Below are positions 41,463 through 51,846 of a stretch of DNA of 64,000 bases, piece by piece. The translations under genes and the position numbers were made by a program. The notes beneath the pieces are model-generated. The model had not been told where the DNA came from. It worked only from the letters and a program-made list of their open reading frames with translations, and did not search any database. The stretch covers positions 186,001 to 250,000 of the forward strand of contig NZ_JAPWDU010000007.1 of NCBI RefSeq assembly GCF_027257155.1, written 5' to 3'. The first letter of the stretch is position 1. Each line of letters opens with the position of its first letter. Origin of the DNA: Cerasicoccus sp. TK19100. Its GTDB lineage: Bacteria > Verrucomicrobiota > Verrucomicrobiia > Opitutales > Cerasicoccaceae.

Positions 41463-42965
41463 ATGGCAGGCGCACTTACAGTAGAAGAATTTCGCAAAGG
41501 CGGGCACCTCCGCCGTTCATCACGCTCGCGCGTTAGTCGTGATGAATGGGTGATTTTGGGTGTCGCGGCTCCAGCTGTGATTATCTCACCGTTCTTACTC
41601 GGAGGTATGGTCTGGTGGAGTCAGGTGTCTATCGCATGTATGCAGGCGCTAATCTTCTTGGTTGCACTCACCCCTTTTTCTGGCATCGCGGCATGGCGTC
41701 AACGATTGCTGAAGCTGGTCAAGTTGCCACCGTTCTGGCTGGGTGGATTGTTTGTCATCTACGTGCTGATACAGGCACTGAATCCGAGCATGAAGCAGGT
41801 TTATGTGGATGAAACGCGCTACTATATTGCAGACCTTAAGCCTGAGTACTACATAGATTGGCTACCGCAGAGCATACTAACCAATTTTTACACCATGAAC
41901 GCCTGGCGCATGGTCATTTTCTGGGCTGGAGCATGGGCGTTCGTTTGCGGCCTCTGGATGGGGCTTAATAATCGAAAAGCGTGGCTAGCTCTCGGTTGGA
42001 TGGCCTTGGGCACCGGTGCTGTCCTAAGCCTGGCTAGCATCGCGCATCACCTGTCCAGTAATGAGCACTTGTTTTGGCTGGAGCAGTTTAAGCGAAATGA
42101 AGGCGCTTTCGGTCCGTTTGTATACCGGAATCAAGCAGCGGCGTATCTTTATTTGTCTATGGGACTTGGCTTTGTACTATTCTTGTATCTGCTTCGCTCT
42201 GGCAAATTTCGTTCAGGCCTACCTATGCTCGCTATAGCTTTCTCGTTGATATGCTTGCTGGGCGTTGCGTTGTGTCCCTCGCGGGGAGGGTGGCTGGGTG
42301 CATCGGGCGTGTTTGTACTATTTATAGTTCTGCTGCCATTTTCATTTAGATTTGAGAATGATTTATCTGTGGGATCACTAGTTGGTATCGTCGTAATCGC
42401 TATTGCTATGGTTTGTGGTAGTATATGGGTGGCGCGAGCTATGGATTTTAGCCAAATCGGCAGTAAGTGGAAGTCTCTCAGGTCTGGCGATGAAGTTTCG
42501 CTTGAAGCCCGTTTTATGCTTAGCAAGCTTACCTTGGACATGCATGAGGACCGGCCTTGGGTTGGCTGGGGAGCAGGGAGCTTTTCTTATAGATATCGAT
42601 ATTATGGATTGGCTTATCCGGATTTGTATTTCATCGGTGATCCATTGAAAAGCTACTATGGTAATCCTCGCTACATTAGCGATTATAAGCAGTCTCATAA
42701 TGATGTTTTTCAGTTTTTGGCCGAGTATGGCATCGTTGGATGCTCATTTATGTTGCTGAATCTTGGCTATTTCATTGTTTATGTTTTATACAAATCTTTT
42801 TCCCCTGAATGGGTTTTAGCTTTATGCGTATGTGTATTATTTATTTTGCACAACTTAGGTGATTTTTTGCTTCAGAATTCTATCCTTCAGATGTCATTCT
42901 TGATTTTGATCCTGCTGAGCCTTGCGTTCGCGCGACGAGGCCACTTTACTTCTGTGGAGAGTTAG
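41463..42965 (+). CDS. O-antigen ligase/polymerase family membrane protein (WaaL-like)
   Basis: A 500-residue protein with about 11-12 membrane helices. A long loop in the second half carries the Wzy_C-type pattern: ARFMLSKLTLDMHEDRPWVGWGAGSFSYRYR, then the conserved HNDVFQFLAEYGIVG containing the His-Asn-x-x-x-x-x-x-x-E-x-G motif. Such proteins either ligate finished O-polysaccharide onto lipid A-core or polymerise repeat units. Because a separate Wzy-like protein is at 47429, ligase is the better guess. It follows kdsD by 24 bases. The DNA becomes steadily AT-richer in its 3' half, marking the edge of the exchanged locus. Bases 42966-43143 after it are AT-rich and hold no gene. Confidence 0.82.
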   Translation: MAGALTVEEFRKGGHLRRSSRSRVSRDEWVILGVAAPAVIISPFLLGGMVWWSQVSIACMQALIFLVALTPFSGIAAWRQRLLKLVKLPPFWLGGLFVIYVLIQALNPSMKQVYVDETRYYIADLKPEYYIDWLPQSILTNFYTMNAWRMVIFWAGAWAFVCGLWMGLNNRKAWLALGWMALGTGAVLSLASIAHHLSSNEHLFWLEQFKRNEGAFGPFVYRNQAAAYLYLSMGLGFVLFLYLLRSGKFRSGLPMLAIAFSLICLLGVALCPSRGGWLGASGVFVLFIVLLPFSFRFENDLSVGSLVGIVVIAIAMVCGSIWVARAMDFSQIGSKWKSLRSGDEVSLEARFMLSKLTLDMHEDRPWVGWGAGSFSYRYRYYGLAYPDLYFIGDPLKSYYGNPRYISDYKQSHNDVFQFLAEYGIVGCSFMLLNLGYFIVYVLYKSFSPEWVLALCVCVLFILHNLGDFLLQNSILQMSFLILILLSLAFARRGHFTSVES

Positions 42966-43143: not shown

Positions 43144-44115
43144 TTGGATATGATTAGTTCTCTCGCGCCGAAGCTCAAGTTTTATGCAGCAAGAGGAATT
43201 CTGTCGTGCTCGTTACGCAAGGAGGAGTTGAATGAGCCGCAGCTGTTGTTTATCGTTGGTACAGGGCGATCTGGGACTAACCTATGCAAGGCTTTGCTGG
43301 ATGTCAGGCCAGATATTTGTATAGGCACTGAAACTCATTTTATTCCAAAATTGATTGCAACTCAAACATCTAACGAATTTGAGTTAGGCAGATTTATTGA
43401 TGTTCTAATGAATCACTGGGATTCGGATGGCTCTTATCGCTGGTTTGAGCATCATGTGTTAAGAGCGGGTAGGCAGCCGAAAAAGTTTCGAAGTGATTTT
43501 GAACGCTTTTGTTTTAAAAACGATTTTCTGAGCGTAGGTGAGTGTATCTATGCTTTCTACATTTACTGCTATGGAAAGCACTGGAGTTTTATTGGCGATA
43601 AGACACCGCAGTATGGTATGCATATGGCCGATATTCATCGCATATTGCCTAAAGCGAAGTTCCTCCATTTGGTGCGCGATGGCCGTTATTGCGCTACTTC
43701 GATTCAGAAGCATGGAGGGTTTATTAAGATGATCAATGGAGGCTATCCTGAAAAGACGATGGAGTATGCTTATGACAACCAACAATCCAAGTATCCAACT
43801 GAGCCTCTTACTTTGTCGCAATGTATTGGATTCTGGCAGCATGTGGTCTTAAGGATTGAAGAGCAGGCAGCGCTAATTCCCAAAGAGAATTATTTACGGG
43901 TGCGTTACGAGGATTTGCAAATGGACTCAAGTCGTGAGTTAACTCGTATTGGTGCCTTTCTTCAGCTCTCAAAAAGTGAATTGTGGACACGTGTCGGACC
44001 GTGGATTCTTGATAGGGGCCTTCGGCGTAAGCAAGAAAAACGACTTGAGAATAAAGATTTTGATGAGCTTACAGAGGCGGGCTCAAAGGCTCTGAAACTG
44101 CTGAATTATATCTGA
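43144..44115 (+). CDS. Sulfotransferase-family protein
   Basis: About 323 residues. The PAPS-binding 5'-phosphosulfate loop is FIVGTGRSGTNLCKALL (GTGRSGTN at 39-46), and the 3'-phosphate motif appears as HLVRDGRYCATSIQKHGG. FIGDKTPQYGMHM is also typical of carbohydrate sulfotransferases. It probably transfers sulfate from PAPS to a sugar of the surface glycan. Start: a TTG at 43144 lies seven bases after GGGAG (43132-43136); the ATG at 43150 is 13 bases away, so TTG is preferred. AT-rich like the rest of the locus. Confidence 0.85.
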   Translation: MDMISSLAPKLKFYAARGILSCSLRKEELNEPQLLFIVGTGRSGTNLCKALLDVRPDICIGTETHFIPKLIATQTSNEFELGRFIDVLMNHWDSDGSYRWFEHHVLRAGRQPKKFRSDFERFCFKNDFLSVGECIYAFYIYCYGKHWSFIGDKTPQYGMHMADIHRILPKAKFLHLVRDGRYCATSIQKHGGFIKMINGGYPEKTMEYAYDNQQSKYPTEPLTLSQCIGFWQHVVLRIEEQAALIPKENYLRVRYEDLQMDSSRELTRIGAFLQLSKSELWTRVGPWILDRGLRRKQEKRLENKDFDELTEAGSKALKLLNYI

Positions 44116-44130
44116 TCTTGCTCTCATCCC

Positions 44131-45222
44131 ATGAAGATTATTGATTCATCGTATCGCGCTGGTTTCCAAGAAGATGTTTTGGATGGAGTACGAGGATTGG
44201 CAGTCTTGATTGTGTTAATGAGTCATGCGGCTAACAAGGGCATTTTGTGGGGGCCGGTAAATGAGTTATTTGGGGGGGGCTCAGGTCAATATGGAGTCTA
44301 TTTGTTTTTTACACTTAGTTCATTTTTGCTGGTTCGCTCACTGTTGAGGAAAAATAATCAAGATTTAAAGAATAGGAAAATTTGGTTGGAGTATTTCTTT
44401 CGAAGATTGCTTCGGATATACCCTTTGTATGTCGTGGTGTTGTTGTTTGTATGCTTTTCCACTCTGATGGATTGGAAGTTGTTTTACTGTTTTGGTTTAG
44501 GTGACTTCGGCGAGCATCTGATGTTGGGGGGGGGGATAGGTCATTTCTGGACTATTGTCGCTGAAGTTAGATTTTACTTCATCATCCCTGTGTTTGTATG
44601 CTTGTTTGTGTTTTTATTTAAAAGAAAAACGGTCCTGTTTATTTTGTTTTCCGTTCTCTTTCTTCAAATTGTATTAGTCTTAAACCTGTTTGTATTTGAT
44701 GATTCTCCGCGCTACTCGCTGATTCGCAATATTATGGTTTTTTATTATGGCGCGTTGGTTGGTGTTTGTTATGAGGGAAATGTTTTGGGGCGAGTCTTTG
44801 AAGTTCTTGGTCCTTTCATGGACTTGATCGCTTTGCTATTAATTATCTCTTGTTTTCTGTTGATGCCGGGTGTTTTAAATGTAATTAGTGGCTATTTTGG
44901 TTTACCGCATATCCCCATTCTTAGTGAGCCAATGCTCAACTTCTGGGGCTTATGGGGCGGGTCTGTTATTTGGACTTCAATGATGTGTCAAGGTTTTATG
45001 AGGCGTTTCTTGAATCTTTGGTTTATTCGATTATTGGGTTTTATCAGTTTTAGCTGTTACTTGTGGCATTGGTTCATTCTGGAGTTCGTTGCTAAATTGA
45101 ATACTGTAAATTCGGTTAAGCTTTTTATCTTTATCACTATGACTCTTGCGGTTAGTACGCTTTCGTACGTGGTTATTGAAAAGCCGTTAGCCAAAATTCG
45201 TATCTATTCACGTCCTCAATAA
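44131..45222 (+). CDS. OafA-like membrane acyltransferase (acyltransferase 3 family)
   Basis: 363 residues with about ten membrane helices. VLDGVRGLAVLIVLMSHAANKG near the N terminus is the family signature with the catalytic-type His. RRLLRIYPLYVVVLLF and HFWTIVAEVRFYFIIP also fit. Members O-acetylate O-antigens, capsules and other sugars at the inner membrane. The gene has two G tracts, G8 at 44272-44279 (codons 48-50) and G10 at 44526-44535 (codons 132-135). In this copy both keep the frame open, while loss or gain of one G soon meets a stop. Phase variation is therefore likely. Confidence 0.9.
   Translation: MKIIDSSYRAGFQEDVLDGVRGLAVLIVLMSHAANKGILWGPVNELFGGGSGQYGVYLFFTLSSFLLVRSLLRKNNQDLKNRKIWLEYFFRRLLRIYPLYVVVLLFVCFSTLMDWKLFYCFGLGDFGEHLMLGGGIGHFWTIVAEVRFYFIIPVFVCLFVFLFKRKTVLFILFSVLFLQIVLVLNLFVFDDSPRYSLIRNIMVFYYGALVGVCYEGNVLGRVFEVLGPFMDLIALLLIISCFLLMPGVLNVISGYFGLPHIPILSEPMLNFWGLWGGSVIWTSMMCQGFMRRFLNLWFIRLLGFISFSCYLWHWFILEFVAKLNTVNSVKLFIFITMTLAVSTLSYVVIEKPLAKIRIYSRPQ
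44272..44279 (+). repeat. G8 tract in the acyltransferase gene
   Basis: Eight consecutive G residues in the frame reading FGGGSG. With one G removed, I read a TGA stop at 44345-44347, about 25 codons downstream. A candidate slipped-strand contingency site. Confidence 0.8.
44526..44535 (+). repeat. G10 tract in the acyltransferase gene
   Basis: Ten consecutive G residues in the frame reading MLGGGIG. One G fewer gives TAG at once after the tract; one G more gives TGA about ten codons on (within GTCGCTGAA). The longest homopolymer I saw in a gene here. Confidence 0.85.
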
Positions 45223-45223
45223 T

Positions 45224-46141
45224 ATGGAATTTTCTCAATCAATGGCTCCGATTGCCTTGTTTGGTTATAATCGACCTATTCATTTTGAAGAAACGCTTGA
45301 GGCATTGTCGAAAAATGTAGGTGCTTCTGAATCGGATTTGCATATCTTTTGCGATGGTAGCAAGGGTGAGGGGGATCGCGAGGCCGTTCGCCAAGTGCGT
45401 GAGATTGCTCAAGCAGCACGTGGGTTTAATTGTGTGAACGTAATGCTATGCGAAAAAAATTATGGTTTGCGGGATAATATTGTTAAGGGGGTTACTGAAT
45501 TAGTTAATGACTATGGAAAAATAATTGTTGTAGAGGATGATATAGTAACATCGCCAGAGTTTCTGGTCTACCATAACCGCGCTTTAGCTCACTATTCTGA
45601 ATGTGAATCTGTTATGCATGTTTCAGCTTATATGCCTAGCCTAATGCATAAAGATAAACTTCCGGATACAGCGCTTTTAAGGTTTATGTCATGTTGGGGG
45701 TGGTCGACTTGGCAACGTGCATGGAGTAAATTCCGTCTTGATTCGGACTATTTTATAGATCGCTTTAATGATGATGATATTCGCTATTTGAACCTTGATG
45801 GCGCATTTCCCTTTTGGAATCAATTAGTTAATAATCATCGAAATTTATCAAGAACGTGGGCAATTTTTTGGTATGCTAGTATTGTTGAGAACAATGGATT
45901 GTCATTGCATGTTAGGGACTCGCTTTGCAAAAATATCGGTGTTGATGGCAGTGGGACAAATTCGCATTGTTCTAGCCAGTTTGAGGTTAATTATGCCATG
46001 AAGGCCCCGGTGACCTTTCCGACGAGCATTGTTGAGGATGTAGTTATGTTAGATGCGCTTAAGGAAGCTTATAGAACCCTTAAGCCAAGTCTCTTTAAGC
46101 GACTGGCCAATAGATTTATTAAATATATTACATCGTCGTGA
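45224..46141 (+). CDS. Glycosyltransferase (GNT-I/GT2-like)
   Basis: 305 residues. The N terminus PIALFGYNRPIHFEETLEAL and HIFCDGSKG give a GT-A nucleotide-binding fold, and IIVVEDDIVTSPEFLVYHNRAL contains the metal-binding Glu-Asp-Asp seen in GNT-I-like (GT13-related) proteins. FMSCWGWSTWQRAWSKF is a conserved acceptor-side stretch in bacterial relatives, some of which are labelled HlpA-like. Likely adds one sugar of the O-unit; donor unknown. It starts two bases after the acyltransferase stop and ends in a GTGA overlap with the flippase gene. Confidence 0.8.
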   Translation: MEFSQSMAPIALFGYNRPIHFEETLEALSKNVGASESDLHIFCDGSKGEGDREAVRQVREIAQAARGFNCVNVMLCEKNYGLRDNIVKGVTELVNDYGKIIVVEDDIVTSPEFLVYHNRALAHYSECESVMHVSAYMPSLMHKDKLPDTALLRFMSCWGWSTWQRAWSKFRLDSDYFIDRFNDDDIRYLNLDGAFPFWNQLVNNHRNLSRTWAIFWYASIVENNGLSLHVRDSLCKNIGVDGSGTNSHCSSQFEVNYAMKAPVTFPTSIVEDVVMLDALKEAYRTLKPSLFKRLANRFIKYITSS

Positions 46142-47454
46142 TAAGGCGACAGGTTGAGTCGATTAAAGCTCTTGGTCGGAGATCGAAAAGGCTGTTTGCC
46201 TATTCTACGGGCACGATTGCTTCACAAACTCTGCCGCTGTTGTTGTCGCCTTTGTTGGCTAGACTCTATTCACCTAGTGATTTCGGTCTTCTTGCCATGC
46301 TCTCCGCGCCATTGGCGGTTTTGACAATACTGTCAAATTTTCGCTATCAAATGACAGTGCCATTGCCGGTTGTAGCTGCGCATGCGCGACGAATGGTGGA
46401 CGTGTGTCTATGGTTGAATTTTACATCTAGTGTTCTGGTTCTCTTTGTTGTCTCGATTTTTGGGGAGAGTATCTGCGAATTGACAGGCACTCCGAGTTTG
46501 AAGATCTGGTTGTTATTTGTTCCTCTCATGATGTTGACTGGTGGTAGTGCGGCTGTTTATCAAATTTGGGCGTTACGAAATGATCACTACTTTGGTTGCG
46601 GCATGAGTAAATTTTTTGGAGCGCTGATGACGGGTACTGTTGGTGTAGCTGGCGGGCTAGTGGGGGGTGGATTTATCACCTTGCTGTATGGAAGAATGGC
46701 TGGACCGGTGTTTGCGCTTGCTCTACTTTTTAGATATGGACGCAAAGTATTGGTTCAGTATAGTCCTCGCCATTATTTTATGCGAATGCGAGTATTGCTA
46801 AGGCGATATCGCGATTTTCCGACCAAGGGACTGTTGCCGATTGTGCTTAACACGCTCGCTGCATCATTGCCGGTGCTAGTGATAGCCACCTTCTATGGTG
46901 CTATGGAGCTTGGTTGGTATTATATGGCTAGTCGTGTGCTTCTCGTGCCCGTGCAAATGCTGGGCGATAGTCTTAAACAGGTCTTGTATCAATCAGCAGC
47001 AAACCGCTCAAGAGAGAGGTTGCCAGTCCGCCCACTATTTATGAGAGTTATGCTTGCTCTGGGGGCTATGATGGTGCCTGTATCATTATTTGTTGCTTTA
47101 TGTGGTCCCGCGGTTTTTGCGTTTTTCTTGGGAGAGGATTGGCGTGTTGCAGGTGGATTTTCTGCAATCTTGGCTATCGCTATTCCTTTTAAAATGACAG
47201 GTTCCTGTCTTGGATGTCTTTTTCTTGTTAATCGAAGAATTGGAACACAATCAGTGTGGCAATACGCATACTTTTTAATCAGCATGATCGGTGTTGTATA
47301 TCTGGCCTGCAGTTATGGAATTGAGGGATTTCTATGGGGGACAGTGGTTATCGATGTCATCATGTATAGTGTTTATATCGGTGTGAATTACTATACATGC
47401 CGATCATCGGATCATCAACGGCTTATTTATGGAAGAACCTCTGAGTTTTTATAA
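46138..47454 (+). CDS. wzx: Wzx-type polysaccharide flippase
   Basis: A 438-residue MATE/MVF-like transporter with about 12 membrane helices. Near the N terminus, AYSTGTIASQTLPLLLSPLLARLYSPSDFGLLAML is the usual first helix pair of lipopolysaccharide flippases. It should move lipid-linked repeat units across the inner membrane for Wzy to polymerise. The start is a GTG at 46138, overlapping the preceding stop by four bases, which argues for coupled translation. Its 3' end overlaps the next gene by 26 bases. Confidence 0.87.
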   Translation: MIRRQVESIKALGRRSKRLFAYSTGTIASQTLPLLLSPLLARLYSPSDFGLLAMLSAPLAVLTILSNFRYQMTVPLPVVAAHARRMVDVCLWLNFTSSVLVLFVVSIFGESICELTGTPSLKIWLLFVPLMMLTGGSAAVYQIWALRNDHYFGCGMSKFFGALMTGTVGVAGGLVGGGFITLLYGRMAGPVFALALLFRYGRKVLVQYSPRHYFMRMRVLLRRYRDFPTKGLLPIVLNTLAASLPVLVIATFYGAMELGWYYMASRVLLVPVQMLGDSLKQVLYQSAANRSRERLPVRPLFMRVMLALGAMMVPVSLFVALCGPAVFAFFLGEDWRVAGGFSAILAIAIPFKMTGSCLGCLFLVNRRIGTQSVWQYAYFLISMIGVVYLACSYGIEGFLWGTVVIDVIMYSVYIGVNYYTCRSSDHQRLIYGRTSEFL

Positions 47455-48775
47455 GGTTATTGCGGTTTTGGTTGTTCTCGGCACCATTTGCATAGGAATG
47501 TGCATTCGCGATATTATACGTTACCAATTGCGTACAATTGCTGGGCCAATGATTGCTCTTTTTGCATCTGTCCACATTTACGGATATCTCATATATCCTC
47601 GTGCTGCTAAGATGCCAATTAATGAGTATCGTTTCGATTGGGAAATTTATGTTCAGATGGGGTGGGCCCTTGCGTTAATACTTTGTCTGTTGATTGGCCT
47701 AATGTTACTTAAAAAGCTATTGATGCCGAAGGATCTTCGATTTCTTATGACGTCTAGGGAAATTGCCCCTCGTCCTCAATTATACCAGTTGGGTTTCTTT
47801 GTAACAATCGTCTACACGCTATTCTTCCTAATTAGAAAGCGCAGTGCAATTGGTGAACTGCTAACGATTATCCGTTCTGGCGATTATATGTGGTATTACG
47901 AGGTTCGTGTGCAAAATATTTTTGATCATGCTCAGAGCAATCCCATCTTAAACAATCTTGACTCGCTGATTGTTGGTAATTTGTTGATGTTTCTCGTTGG
48001 GGTTTTGTATTATATAGGTTTCAAATATAGAAAGTTTTTCCCTTATTATCATCTTTTACTAGCTTTTGCGCTGCTAACGACGCTCATACGCTTTCAGAAA
48101 TCGCCAATTCTTCAGTTAATGCTATTGATCTGTTTGGCATATTTTTTCGGACGACAGTTTTCAATCCGCCGTGGGTTTCGTTTTATCAAACCCATTCTGC
48201 TAACTGGAGTTTTCTTAATTGCTGTGGTTGCTGTTTATGTTGTTCTCGGTTTTTCGGGGAACATTGTTGGCGAACTGCACAACCGGCTATTTCTTTCGTC
48301 GACTTTAACTTCTTATGCACATTTTTGGACTTTTCCTACGCATAATGGTTTTTTGTATTATGGCGGTTCTCGTTTGTTTAACTTAGTATTGGGTTTTGGA
48401 CAAACTCCCGACCTGTCTCTGGGCTTGGCCACACCGCCGCTTGTTAGTTCATATCTATATATGGGTAGTATGTTCAACTTGAATACTAGCATTTTAGGGA
48501 CGGCGTGGGCGCAAAATGGATATGCTGGTATTTTTATAGAAACAATGCTTTTTTTCGGGTGCTTTGTTTTCTGGGATATTGTTTTTGCAAGAAAATTGAA
48601 ACGATACCCCTACGAGCCAGTTGTTATTTTCTTTTTAATGCAATTTTTGGTAGTGTTGAATAACGGAGCGCTTTCCTTGATTGGTAAAGGTTTTATTGTA
48701 ATACCTGTTTTATACCTAATTCTGTTTAGGCCTTTCAGTGGCGGTTATGGTGGGGGGAGGCCCCCGATGTCATGA
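47429..48775 (+). CDS. Wzy-type O-antigen polymerase (putative)
   Basis: 448 residues with 10-12 hydrophobic segments and large loops; no close motif, as is usual for Wzy. The position between Wzx and glycosyltransferases, the membrane layout and the loop with TTLIRFQKSPILQLMLLICLAYFFGR support oligosaccharide-unit polymerase (O-antigen polysaccharide polymerase type). The region YMGSMFNLNTSILGTAWAQNGYAG late in the protein recalls the conserved end part of such proteins. It overlaps the flippase by 26 bases and the next gene by four (ATGA). A G6 run is next to the stop. The other possibility is an unrelated polytopic protein. Confidence 0.7.
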   Translation: MEEPLSFYKVIAVLVVLGTICIGMCIRDIIRYQLRTIAGPMIALFASVHIYGYLIYPRAAKMPINEYRFDWEIYVQMGWALALILCLLIGLMLLKKLLMPKDLRFLMTSREIAPRPQLYQLGFFVTIVYTLFFLIRKRSAIGELLTIIRSGDYMWYYEVRVQNIFDHAQSNPILNNLDSLIVGNLLMFLVGVLYYIGFKYRKFFPYYHLLLAFALLTTLIRFQKSPILQLMLLICLAYFFGRQFSIRRGFRFIKPILLTGVFLIAVVAVYVVLGFSGNIVGELHNRLFLSSTLTSYAHFWTFPTHNGFLYYGGSRLFNLVLGFGQTPDLSLGLATPPLVSSYLYMGSMFNLNTSILGTAWAQNGYAGIFIETMLFFGCFVFWDIVFARKLKRYPYEPVVIFFLMQFLVVLNNGALSLIGKGFIVIPVLYLILFRPFSGGYGGGRPPMS

Positions 48776-50046
48776 GGGTTTTATGGTTCGTGAATGCTCC
48801 AATGCCTGGCCATATGGCTATGGTCGGGCGCCGAATGGAGACTACGGGATGGTGGATGGTTTCCTTGCTCAAAGAGTTGATGAGGTATCGCCATTTCCAA
48901 TTCATTGTTGTTTGTGAAAGCGGTATTTTTAATCAATACTGCGAGGAAGTGCATGACAACGTTACCTACGTAGGGATTCCCGAGCAGAATATTTTTCGCC
49001 GTTTGGCTGCCAATCAGAATGGGGTTAGTATTATTGTGGCACGTTTGCTCTTGATTGGCGCTGCTTTTACTGCCGCAGCATGTCTCAAGGGGCGCAATAA
49101 TTATGTGGATATTATTCGGCGTTATGAACCTGATTTGGTTCATGTCCATGGGACTGAGAAGCCTTATGCCTTGGCAAAGCAACTATGTCCCGACGTTCCG
49201 TTCCTAGTGACGATCCAGGGGATTTTGGACGTTTATCGTCAGTATTATTGGGCGGATTTGCCTTGGAGGGAGCGCCTTAAATATCCGCAACTTATGGCTG
49301 ACTATTTGGGCATGCAGAGGTATTCGGTCATCGAGCGCGAAATCTTTCGCTGCAACCAGAATTTTGGGGGTCGGACATTTTGGGATCGTGCACATGTGCT
49401 GCGTATGAACTCCCAAGCTTGCTACTTTAATATTGGAGAAATGCTACGAGAAGATTTTATTGGGAGCAGGTGGAGATCCAGTAACGCCGTCAAGGGACGA
49501 ATATACACCACCACCACGCCGCGGACATATAAGGGGATTCATATCCTTATTGAGGCTATAGCAATTTTGCGTATGACTATGCCTAATATTCATCTAAGAA
49601 TAGGTGGCCCTATAGGTAAGCATGGATGGAGTAGGCGTATGAGACGGCTCGCAGCAAGTCGTGGTTTGTCGGATTGCGTTGAATTCTTGGGCTACGTTGA
49701 TACCTCGCAAATTGTGGAGAACCTTCAGGAGTGTCAGGTGTATGTTTTGCCATCCTTCATTGAAAACAGCCCAAATAGTTTAGCTGAAGCGCAGGCTATG
49801 GGGGTGCCTTGTGTATCGTCCTATTGTGGCGGTGTTCCGTCTATGATTGAGGAAGGTGAAACTGGTTTGTTATTCAATTGCGGTGATTCTGCCGTGCTTG
49901 CAGAGAAAATACGCACACTTATGAATGATGAGCAACTTGCAACTCGTCTCTCTATGTGTGGACGGAAAGTCGCTCATGCTCGCCATGAATCAAGTGGTGT
50001 GGTGTCGGGATTGAGGTTTGCTTATTCTGAGCTCACTGGCCTCTGA
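48772..50046 (+). CDS. Glycosyltransferase family 4
   Basis: 424 residues, GT-B fold. The C-terminal donor domain has YTTTTPRTYKGIHILIEAI, RIGGPIGKHG, and the GT4 ExxxxxxxE-type motif in VLPSFIENSPNSLAEAQAMGVPCV. The N-terminal domain starts VLWFVNAPMPGHMAMVGRRM, a typical acceptor-side opening, and DLVHVHGTEKPYALAKQL. It retains the sugar configuration; donor and linkage unknown. ATGA overlap with the polymerase gene. Confidence 0.88.
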   Translation: MRVLWFVNAPMPGHMAMVGRRMETTGWWMVSLLKELMRYRHFQFIVVCESGIFNQYCEEVHDNVTYVGIPEQNIFRRLAANQNGVSIIVARLLLIGAAFTAAACLKGRNNYVDIIRRYEPDLVHVHGTEKPYALAKQLCPDVPFLVTIQGILDVYRQYYWADLPWRERLKYPQLMADYLGMQRYSVIEREIFRCNQNFGGRTFWDRAHVLRMNSQACYFNIGEMLREDFIGSRWRSSNAVKGRIYTTTTPRTYKGIHILIEAIAILRMTMPNIHLRIGGPIGKHGWSRRMRRLAASRGLSDCVEFLGYVDTSQIVENLQECQVYVLPSFIENSPNSLAEAQAMGVPCVSSYCGGVPSMIEEGETGLLFNCGDSAVLAEKIRTLMNDEQLATRLSMCGRKVAHARHESSGVVSGLRFAYSELTGL

Positions 50047-50078
50047 GGTTGTAAGCGAATTTCAAAAAAAAAAGAATA

Positions 50079-50687
50079 ATGAGAATGTTTTTTGATGCTT
50101 GGCGAACTGCCAAAAGAGGGTTGCTTGGCCTTTTTTGGACTGCCAGAGATATTTTATTTTTCAGGCTGTCCCGAATTATTTGTGGAAAAAATTTTAAGAG
50201 TGTTGGTAGGATCTATTGGCATGTCCATCGCCGTGGTCAGTTGATGATTGGGTCCAACGTTCGTATACTGTCGAGCTATTCGGCAAATGTCGTAGGAGCT
50301 GAAAACCGAGCATGCATTCAAGTGCTACCAGGTGGGTTTCTGTCCATTGGGGATTGCGTTGGGATAAGTAACTCAACGATTGTATGTTTTCGAGAAATAA
50401 CAATTGAATCCAATGTGTTCATTGGAGGTGGCTGTCATATTTATGACACTAATTTTCATGATCTTAACGCCCAGAGGCGTGTTTCTCAGGTCGATGAAGT
50501 GATTGACTCTGCTCCAATAATTCTAAGAGAGTATTGCTTTATCGGCGCGCATGCCATTATTTTGAAGGGCGTTGAAATTGGACGTGAATCCATCATCGCA
50601 GCGGGCTCTTTAGTGACTAATAATGTTCCTGCGAGAGAGGTTTGGGGTGGGGTTCCCGCTAAGTATATTCGTAAAATCGATGAGTGA
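50079..50687 (+). CDS. Left-handed beta-helix acyltransferase (hexapeptide repeat)
   Basis: 202 residues with hexapeptide repeats from about 50 on: GSNVRILSSY, GGFLSIGDCVGISN, ITIESNVFIGGGCHIYDTNFHD (catalytic His region), FIGAHAIILKGVEIGRESIIAAGSLV and VWGGVPAKYIRK, which is the standard C-terminal end. It resembles serine- or sugar-O-acetyltransferases of capsule loci. An A10 run (50064-50073) occupies the ribosome-binding region, six to fifteen bases before the ATG, and could alter expression if its length varies. Confidence 0.85.
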   Translation: MRMFFDAWRTAKRGLLGLFWTARDILFFRLSRIICGKNFKSVGRIYWHVHRRGQLMIGSNVRILSSYSANVVGAENRACIQVLPGGFLSIGDCVGISNSTIVCFREITIESNVFIGGGCHIYDTNFHDLNAQRRVSQVDEVIDSAPIILREYCFIGAHAIILKGVEIGRESIIAAGSLVTNNVPAREVWGGVPAKYIRKIDE

Positions 50688-51846
50688 TAAGAGATTGCTA
50701 GTGATTATTGGCTGTTTCCCTTTTCCGAGAGGAGAAGCTGCCAGTGTGCGCGTATGCAATTTTGCTCACGCGGTTAGGGAAAGTGGATGGGATGTTGAGG
50801 TGATGACTTATGGTGCCTCTGGGTCGCAGGAAAATTATGAAATAGACGGTGTTCGGTACGTGTCGCTTTTTCCTGCTAATGGCGGAAGATTAGCGAGTCA
50901 GTTGAGTTATTATTGGGTCCCATTCCTACTGGCTAGAAAAATTAAACGGCGTTATCTTGGTCAAAAGAATATTGCCGTGATGATCTACAATGGAGTGGCT
51001 ACCGTAAATTTTCCCATATTCTTAGCTTTTAAGTCACTCGGTGCTTTTGTTTTGGCTGACATTAACGAGTCGCCCTCAAGCTTTACGGGGAGGGGGGGGA
51101 AATTAAGCCCCAATTACTGGAATTTCTGGTTCTCTTATCATTGGGTTGCGCGAAAATTTGATCTAATTGCTGGGATTACGCATTCTATCTGTGATTATTT
51201 TACTCGCTGTGGGCTTAATAGCGTAGTCTATCCTAGTATTGGCAATTTTGCTTCGTTATGCAACCATCACGATGCCAATGATCCAATACAGCTTCTATAT
51301 ATGGGTCGTTTTTTTGACCGAGATCGTCCAGATTGGATGTTTGCTCTGTTGGGGTACCTAAAGCGTAGTGGCGTGTTATTTAAGCTGCATTGCGTGGGAA
51401 GTGAAACTGGAAATGCCTATGAGTCTAAATGCGTTGAGGAGGCTTTTACTAACTATCCCGATCTGCGTGATAATGTGTATTTTTATGGTCGTGTTTCTGA
51501 GTGTGAGTTGTTGAATATTAAGAGAAAAGCCATCGCCGGATTTGTGCTTCGTCGTGATCATGAGTCTGAGCGTACTTCGTTTCCTACGCGTTTGGTTGAG
51601 ATGCTTGAGTTAGGCATTGCTGTGATTACTTCGCCTGTGCCCGATGTTAATTCTTATCTTACCCACGGAAAAGATTCTATAATTTTAGGGATGAAATCCC
51701 TTGATGATGATGCCGCGATGTTGAAGCGCTTTTTTGAATATCCAGACAAGCTTGCTGACTTGGGCAAAGCAGGGTGGCAAACTGGTAAGTTGCATTTCAG
51801 TGCACGGAGTTGCGCCCAGCGTGTCTTGGATGAAATTGTGCTGTGA
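50680..51846 (+). CDS. Glycosyltransferase (GT4-like)
   Basis: About 388 residues from the ATG at 50680 (MSDKRLLVIIG), which overlaps the previous stop by eight bases. GT-B fold: FPFPRGEAASVRVCNFAHAV in the acceptor domain, and LLYMGRFFDRDRPDWMFALL, YFYGRVSECELLNIKRKAIAG and FPTRLVEMLELGIAVITS in the donor domain. The E-x7-E motif is not canonical. A G8 tract at 51092-51099 (about codon 138) keeps the frame; a slip of one either way reaches a stop. Confidence 0.78.
   Translation: MSDKRLLVIIGCFPFPRGEAASVRVCNFAHAVRESGWDVEVMTYGASGSQENYEIDGVRYVSLFPANGGRLASQLSYYWVPFLLARKIKRRYLGQKNIAVMIYNGVATVNFPIFLAFKSLGAFVLADINESPSSFTGRGGKLSPNYWNFWFSYHWVARKFDLIAGITHSICDYFTRCGLNSVVYPSIGNFASLCNHHDANDPIQLLYMGRFFDRDRPDWMFALLGYLKRSGVLFKLHCVGSETGNAYESKCVEEAFTNYPDLRDNVYFYGRVSECELLNIKRKAIAGFVLRRDHESERTSFPTRLVEMLELGIAVITSPVPDVNSYLTHGKDSIILGMKSLDDDAAMLKRFFEYPDKLADLGKAGWQTGKLHFSARSCAQRVLDEIVL
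51092..51099 (+). repeat. G8 tract in a glycosyltransferase gene
   Basis: Eight G residues within the codons for GRGGKL. Losing one G gives TAA two codons on; gaining one gives TGA about 20 codons on. Same candidate slippage signal as in the acyltransferase gene. Confidence 0.8.

Follow-up and report, generated by a model that had tools for sequence, protein, structure and literature searches.

A candidate slippage-switched acyltransferase gene in a surface-polysaccharide locus of Cerasicoccus sp. TK19100

Can a bacterium of the genus Cerasicoccus, whose members are marine isolates, turn a decoration of its surface polysaccharide on and off through slippage at short runs of G? The question is raised by a locus of Cerasicoccus sp. 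TK19100 in which a gene for an acyltransferase-3 (AT3, OafA-like) protein carries two such runs within its reading frame. The DNA analysed, called the window here, is a stretch of 64,000 nucleotides (contig NZ_JAPWDU010000007.1, C7:186001-250000) of a 5.07-Mb genome (G000). In Neisseria, Campylobacter, and Helicobacter, many poly-G or poly-C loci are phase variable, and their switching has been observed. A sequence-only reading of the window had proposed that three G tracts in an acyltransferase gene and a glycosyltransferase gene are contingency signals of this kind. The coordinates of the three tracts, their kept reading frames, and the out-of-frame stops that had been traced by hand are all borne out, and the identities of both genes are confirmed by Pfam. 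The acyltransferase gene and its tracts are as follows.

44131 to 45222, plus strand: AT3 (OafA-like) acyltransferase gene, an open reading frame (ORF) of 363 amino acids with two G tracts within; Pfam Acyl_transf_3 (PF01757)
44272 to 44279, plus strand: G8 tract, codons of Gly48-50, about 13% into the AT3 gene
44526 to 44535, plus strand: G10 tract, covering the last part of a Leu codon and the codons of Gly133-135, about 36% into the AT3 gene

The Acyl_transf_3 match of this ORF scores 88.3 bits against a cut-off of 31 (E 6.6e-25), and alignment shows that the H, RRxxR, and E positions, which presumably have a role in AT3 proteins, are common to its relatives. By the Pfam match and the alignment, the gene appears intact. 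Both tracts keep the reading frame in this assembly, which corresponds to the ON state. At the G8, a shift of minus one leads to a TGA at 44345 and a shift of plus one to a TAG at 44316; at the G10, the corresponding stops are a TAG at 44537 and a TGA at 44562. A change of one or two bases in either tract cuts the membrane protein to 61-144 amino acids. The second Gly stretch is followed directly by a hydrophobic segment (residues 139-166), and Gly-Gly-Gly is found at that site in none of 14 aligned relatives, so in-frame length changes there may be tolerated.

A frameshift hotspot in the AT3 gene is plausible because the G10 is the sole run of at least ten G or C in any ORF of at least 100 amino acids in this genome, stops are present in both shifted frames, and the gene belongs to a surface-polysaccharide locus. 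To judge by these features of the DNA, the AT3 gene is a candidate phase-variable gene of that locus, switched by slippage, and the chance that it is one may be put just short of even. Slippage of the polymerase, mostly at the G10 and more rarely at the G8, would make reversible frameshifts, and a minority of cells would thereby lack the acyl decoration. Changes of plus or minus three bases would only alter the length of the Gly stretch. Supporting this, the two tracts are present in a gene of 39% GC despite an avoidance of G runs throughout the genome.

The surroundings of the AT3 gene show what such a switch might act upon. Three neighbors are of particular relevance.

41463 to 42965, plus strand: membrane protein of the Wzy_C / O-antigen-ligase family
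43144 to 44115, plus strand: sulfotransferase gene, directly 5' of the AT3 gene
46138 to 47454, plus strand: flippase-like gene (Polysacc_synt)

The locus also has further glycosyltransferases, two hexapeptide acyltransferases, PfkB, an epimerase, DAHP_synth_1 (KdsA-like), and SIS/CBS (KpsF-like) genes. The assignment to a surface polysaccharide is supported because the Wzy_C protein, the flippase-like protein, the glycosyltransferases, the sulfotransferase, and the KdsA-like and KpsF-like genes are found together. The sequence-only reading had named an O-polysaccharide locus; the gene content upholds a surface polysaccharide, which could be an O-antigen, a capsule, or an exopolysaccharide.

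How often should tracts of this length be expected? The genome has 15 tracts of at least eight G or C (23 overlapping matches merged), of which 11 are in ORFs of at least 160 amino acids and four are outside such ORFs. The sequence-only reading had called for a comparison with a codon-shuffled model. When synonymous codons are shuffled within genes, about 116 coding tracts (standard deviation 21) are expected against the 11 observed, which amounts to a roughly tenfold avoidance of long G runs in this genome. Coding runs of five, six, and seven are likewise at 0.59, 0.35, and 0.26 of expectation in untargeted stretches. These expectations rest on a mechanical ORF picker, and the sample of the genome comprised 60 stretches, 12 of them centered on tracts and the others without tracts (40 drawn by script and eight chosen by hand). 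Poly-G/C runs are under-represented in genomes generally (PMC2831843).

Three of the 11 coding tracts are in this locus and eight elsewhere, in genes for a GH3 enzyme, a helicase, HsdS, an Hsp70-like protein, TilS, and a kinase/FGE-sulfatase protein and in two ORFs without a Pfam match. If 2-6% of genes are assumed to be glycan-related, the finding that two of ten tract genes are glycan genes has a P of 0.016-0.12. The TilS tract is at what we take to be the SGGxDS motif of that protein. The tract in the HsdS specificity-subunit gene is a C8 that codes for PVPPL (C2:193149-193156; L044 10149-10156). A G10 at L051 10134-10143 is inside an apparent transposase remnant, judged by eye from what we take to be a transposase motif.

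One could consider the runs in the polysaccharide locus to be incidental. A low-GC locus, perhaps acquired horizontally, that uses GGG more freely would encode its Gly stretches in this way, and mismatch repair would keep them stable, with no switching. The GGG share of Gly codons is 22% in the locus compared to 14% in the genome sample, and eight of 30 in the AT3 gene; more use of GGG leads to more chance G runs. Tracts of eight are also present in the TilS and Hsp70-like genes, and when the dinucleotides of the window are shuffled, 15 of 100 shuffles reach five matches, which is not significant. The presence of MutS and MutL and the failure to find a close AT3 relative among 387 genomes of the phylum also favor this view. 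However, when the AT3 gene is shuffled alone, its own codons give two tracts of at least eight, including one of at least ten, in just 11 of 40,000 shuffles. Clustering as close as that observed is also improbable: if 15 tracts are placed uniformly, the probability that three come within 6.82 kb is ~0.0024, and that two come within 254 bases is 0.011. With an A10 run described below included, four of 20 rare runs within 6.8 kb give a post hoc P of 3.75e-5. A test limited to runs of at least ten, of which the genome has eight, gives P 0.059 for two of them this close. Incidental runs are a possible explanation, and one to be placed well under an even chance.

The codon use and the dinucleotide shuffle just described weigh against a switch, as do several further points. 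All the tract statistics are post hoc, with thresholds set after the data were seen. The tract lengths are known from one assembly, and no close relative of the AT3 protein other than itself was found in 387 genomes of the phylum at E<=1e-15 or, by peptide-pattern scans, in the genome-contig and viral-contig collections. Several relatives have Gly-Gly in the region of the first tract, and one has Gly-Gly-Gly, so the first Gly stretch may be partly structural. Among the matches listed, three other glycosyltransferase clusters of the genome (C5:198-219k, C5:484-493k, and C3:20-50k) are without a tract of at least eight G or C. Lastly, MutS and MutL were found in this genome, which means that slippage should be slowed. 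They were also found in the three sibling genomes (G001-G003), and on that ground the loss of mismatch repair was rejected as a cause of the tracts. The rate of homopolymer indels grows with length in mutS mutants (PMC5854121).

Could other runs of the locus take part? Four more features are of concern.

50064 to 50073, plus strand: A10 tract, its end five bases short of a hexapeptide acyltransferase start codon (ATG)
50079 to 50687, plus strand: gene for a hexapeptide-repeat acyltransferase, 3' of the A10
50623 to 51846, plus strand: GT4-type glycosyltransferase gene (ORF with GT4-type family matches; probable start ATG 50680)
51092 to 51099, plus strand: G8 tract inside the glycosyltransferase gene, frame kept

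The probable start of the glycosyltransferase gene overlaps the stop of the upstream gene. At its G8, a shift of minus one leads to a TAA at 51104 and a shift of plus one to a TGA at 51159. This tract is the weakest member of the set: a run of at least eight arises in 959 of 40,000 shuffles of the gene alone (2.4%), and at eight bases it is short. It would be at most a much slower switch. The A10, absent from the sequence-only reading, is one of five A or T runs of at least ten in the genome and could vary the spacing of the ribosome site of the hexapeptide acyltransferase gene. In the broadest proposal, the G10 and G8 of the AT3 gene, the A10 at the ribosome-binding region of the second acyltransferase gene, and the G8 of the glycosyltransferase gene would form a multi-tract decoration switch. 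It would yield combinatorial surface variants in a bacterium with MutS and MutL, and in a genus where poly-G growth would have made potential frameshift hotspots of many genes, from dozens to hundreds in each species. We regard so extensive a system as improbable.

The relatives of the AT3 protein offer a further comparison. Matches in related genomes are approximately 27-41% identical. At 20 further AT3 places in four Cerasicoccus genomes, the domain is free of tracts of at least eight G or C, which speaks for a switch in the gene considered here. In three of the 20, a tract is within about 250 bases outside the domain (L347 C8, L360 G10, and L362 G10); the L360 tract (1347-1356), from C. maritimus, is about 117 bases 5' of a likely AT3 gene start. 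One AT3 gene in a glycosyltransferase cluster of G002 (L355) is split; the interruption is an in-frame TGA rather than a G tract, and the gene has no G or C run of at least seven.

What do the sibling genomes say about G tracts in general? Three were compared: Cerasicoccus frondis (G001), C. maritimus (G003), and a further Cerasicoccus of 4.1 Mb (G002). Tracts of at least nine G or C number 5 in the TK19100 genome, 52 in C. maritimus, 94 in C. frondis, and ~459 in G002, the last figure being the difference of the G9 and G10 match counts. At least one G10 match is present in 151 of 226 genomes from the order, the highest number being in G002 (787, with 3 in the TK19100 genome). The tracts examined were 69 of the 94 in C. 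frondis, 50 of the 52 in C. maritimus, and, in G002, those within 400 kb. In the G002 samples, coding tracts of at least nine are ~3-12 times the codon-shuffle expectation, whereas runs of five to seven are below it, and A or T runs of at least eight are not in excess.

Many of these tracts are in housekeeping genes. The G002 tract genes include those for GatB, glutamyl/glutaminyl-tRNA synthetase, IlvD, RibBA, TsaD, GlgB, dihydrouridine synthase, and H+-pyrophosphatase. Of its scanned tract ORFs, one in 36 is a glycosyltransferase and six in 36 have no Pfam match at 1e-5. The scans of C. frondis and C. maritimus took in 43 tract ORFs of about 180 amino acids or longer, plus one of 104, with shorter ones left out; three of the 43 are glycosyltransferases, 14 have no Pfam match at 1e-5, and one more has a GINT1_N transferase domain. 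Tracts outside ORFs of 100 amino acids make up 24 of 69 in C. frondis and 26 of 50 in C. maritimus. Six coding tracts of at least nine in G002 are spanned by homologue alignments (42-82% identical), and all six are in frame, at the following places.

L092 15137
L093 11311
L093 19388
L098 10557
L105 3009
L106 15660

A seventh spanned tract (L106 17373) falls just 5' of a gene start.

Sibling tracts are so widespread in ordinary genes that a tract alone is poor evidence of switching. Some are also of equal length in two species, which indicates that such tracts need not vary. For example, a C9 in a DEAD-box helicase gene is identical in place and length in the TK19100 genome (L042 10279-10287) and in C. 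frondis (L324 2501-2509). C. frondis and C. maritimus have homologous GT4 genes with a 10-base tract at the matching position (L252 1502 and L293 2502; 74% identical over 301 amino acids), and a C9 in an M23 peptidase gene is common to these two species in place and length. Within the genus, then, the length of a tract can persist unchanged across species or be maintained by selection, and homopolymer length on its own is a poor guide to contingency genes in Cerasicoccus.

These data raise another explanation, that runs past about eight bases tend to lengthen in any gene of the lineage, under a mutational regime rather than as a selected contingency locus. The tract counts of the siblings, the pattern of depleted short runs and excess long runs in G002, and the many housekeeping genes affected are in its favor. 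The TK19100 genome itself, however, has no such excess, its coding tracts of at least eight being depleted, and three of its tracts share one locus; for this locus, lineage-wide growth is therefore unlikely. The sequence-only reading had held that a genome-wide excess of G8-G10 runs in ordinary genes would speak against contingency. An excess of this sort, in coding tracts of at least nine, is found in the G002 samples and not in the TK19100 genome. What stands of the contingency proposal is the plausible frameshift hotspot in the AT3 gene, and what is weakened is the wider inference from poly-G tracts as such.

A dispersed repeat was also seen in C. frondis and C. maritimus. It spans ~290-670 aligned bases and has at one end a G tract of variable length (9-17), followed in most copies by TAAA and then, a little further on, by ATATCAA or a similar sequence. 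The copies are 67-93% identical to L332 (from ~2501), with the similarity beginning at the tract.

C. frondis copies: L332, L299, L330, L300, L329, L341, L305, L336, L322, L311, and L308
C. maritimus copies: L264, L276, L269, L278, L268, and L266

Ten repeat-bearing loci gave no Rfam match for it, and it was not found in the samples of the TK19100 genome (1.26 Mb, window included) or of G002, except for a motif of about 30 bases in one TK19100 stretch.

Is there a precedent in the phylum? The sequence-only reading knew of no described case in Verrucomicrobiota. This is contradicted by work on Akkermansia muciniphila. Slippage was proposed in 2011 for a G8 in the capsular exopolysaccharide gene Amuc_1413 and a C10 in the acyltransferase gene Amuc_2098 (PMC3048395). 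In 2026, a change from G9 to G10 in Amuc_1413 was reported in four of nine sequenced passage mutants, at 87-91% of reads and with loss of mucin binding; across 100 genomes, the tract was 9G in 32, 8G in three, and 10G in one (PMC13055324). Phase variation of the Akkermansia capsule through invertible DNA is reported as well (PMC13343947).

The likeness to Amuc_1413 and Amuc_2098 lies in the phylum, the pairing of exopolysaccharide and acyltransferase genes, tracts of 8-10 G or C, and, in Amuc_1413, nearby out-of-frame stops. The differences are also clear. For Amuc_1413, the tract is reported to change in length, to give mixed reads, and to vary among genomes, and mucin binding to be lost, whereas the Cerasicoccus case is known from the sequence of one assembly. 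The Amuc_2098 repeat (cps1) is at the gene end, unlike the AT3 tracts in the first 40%, and the two were compared by description, not by homology. The MutS and MutL of Cerasicoccus should be set beside the Akkermansia case, in which a G9 shifted in culture.

Outside the phylum, the glycan genes of Neisseria, Campylobacter, and Helicobacter share with the AT3 gene in-frame G tracts of 8-10 and early stops in the other frames. Unlike those organisms, the Cerasicoccus genome has one such locus, together with MutS and MutL. Vibrio cholerae O1 is likewise reported to have phase-variable O-antigen biosynthesis genes, which differ in having been found using an O1-specific phage as probe (PMC3441752). 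A literature search on Cerasicoccus and homopolymers brought up a single paper, on a sponge microbiome, and none of ten titles from another search deals with slippage in Verrucomicrobiota.

The Cerasicoccus locus is thus a candidate further case of a kind already proposed in Akkermansia. If the AT3 gene is indeed switched, the range of slippage switching of surface glycans would take in Cerasicoccus as well as gut Akkermansia, the genome concerned would be one that has MutS and MutL, and the likely driver would be phage pressure rather than host immunity.

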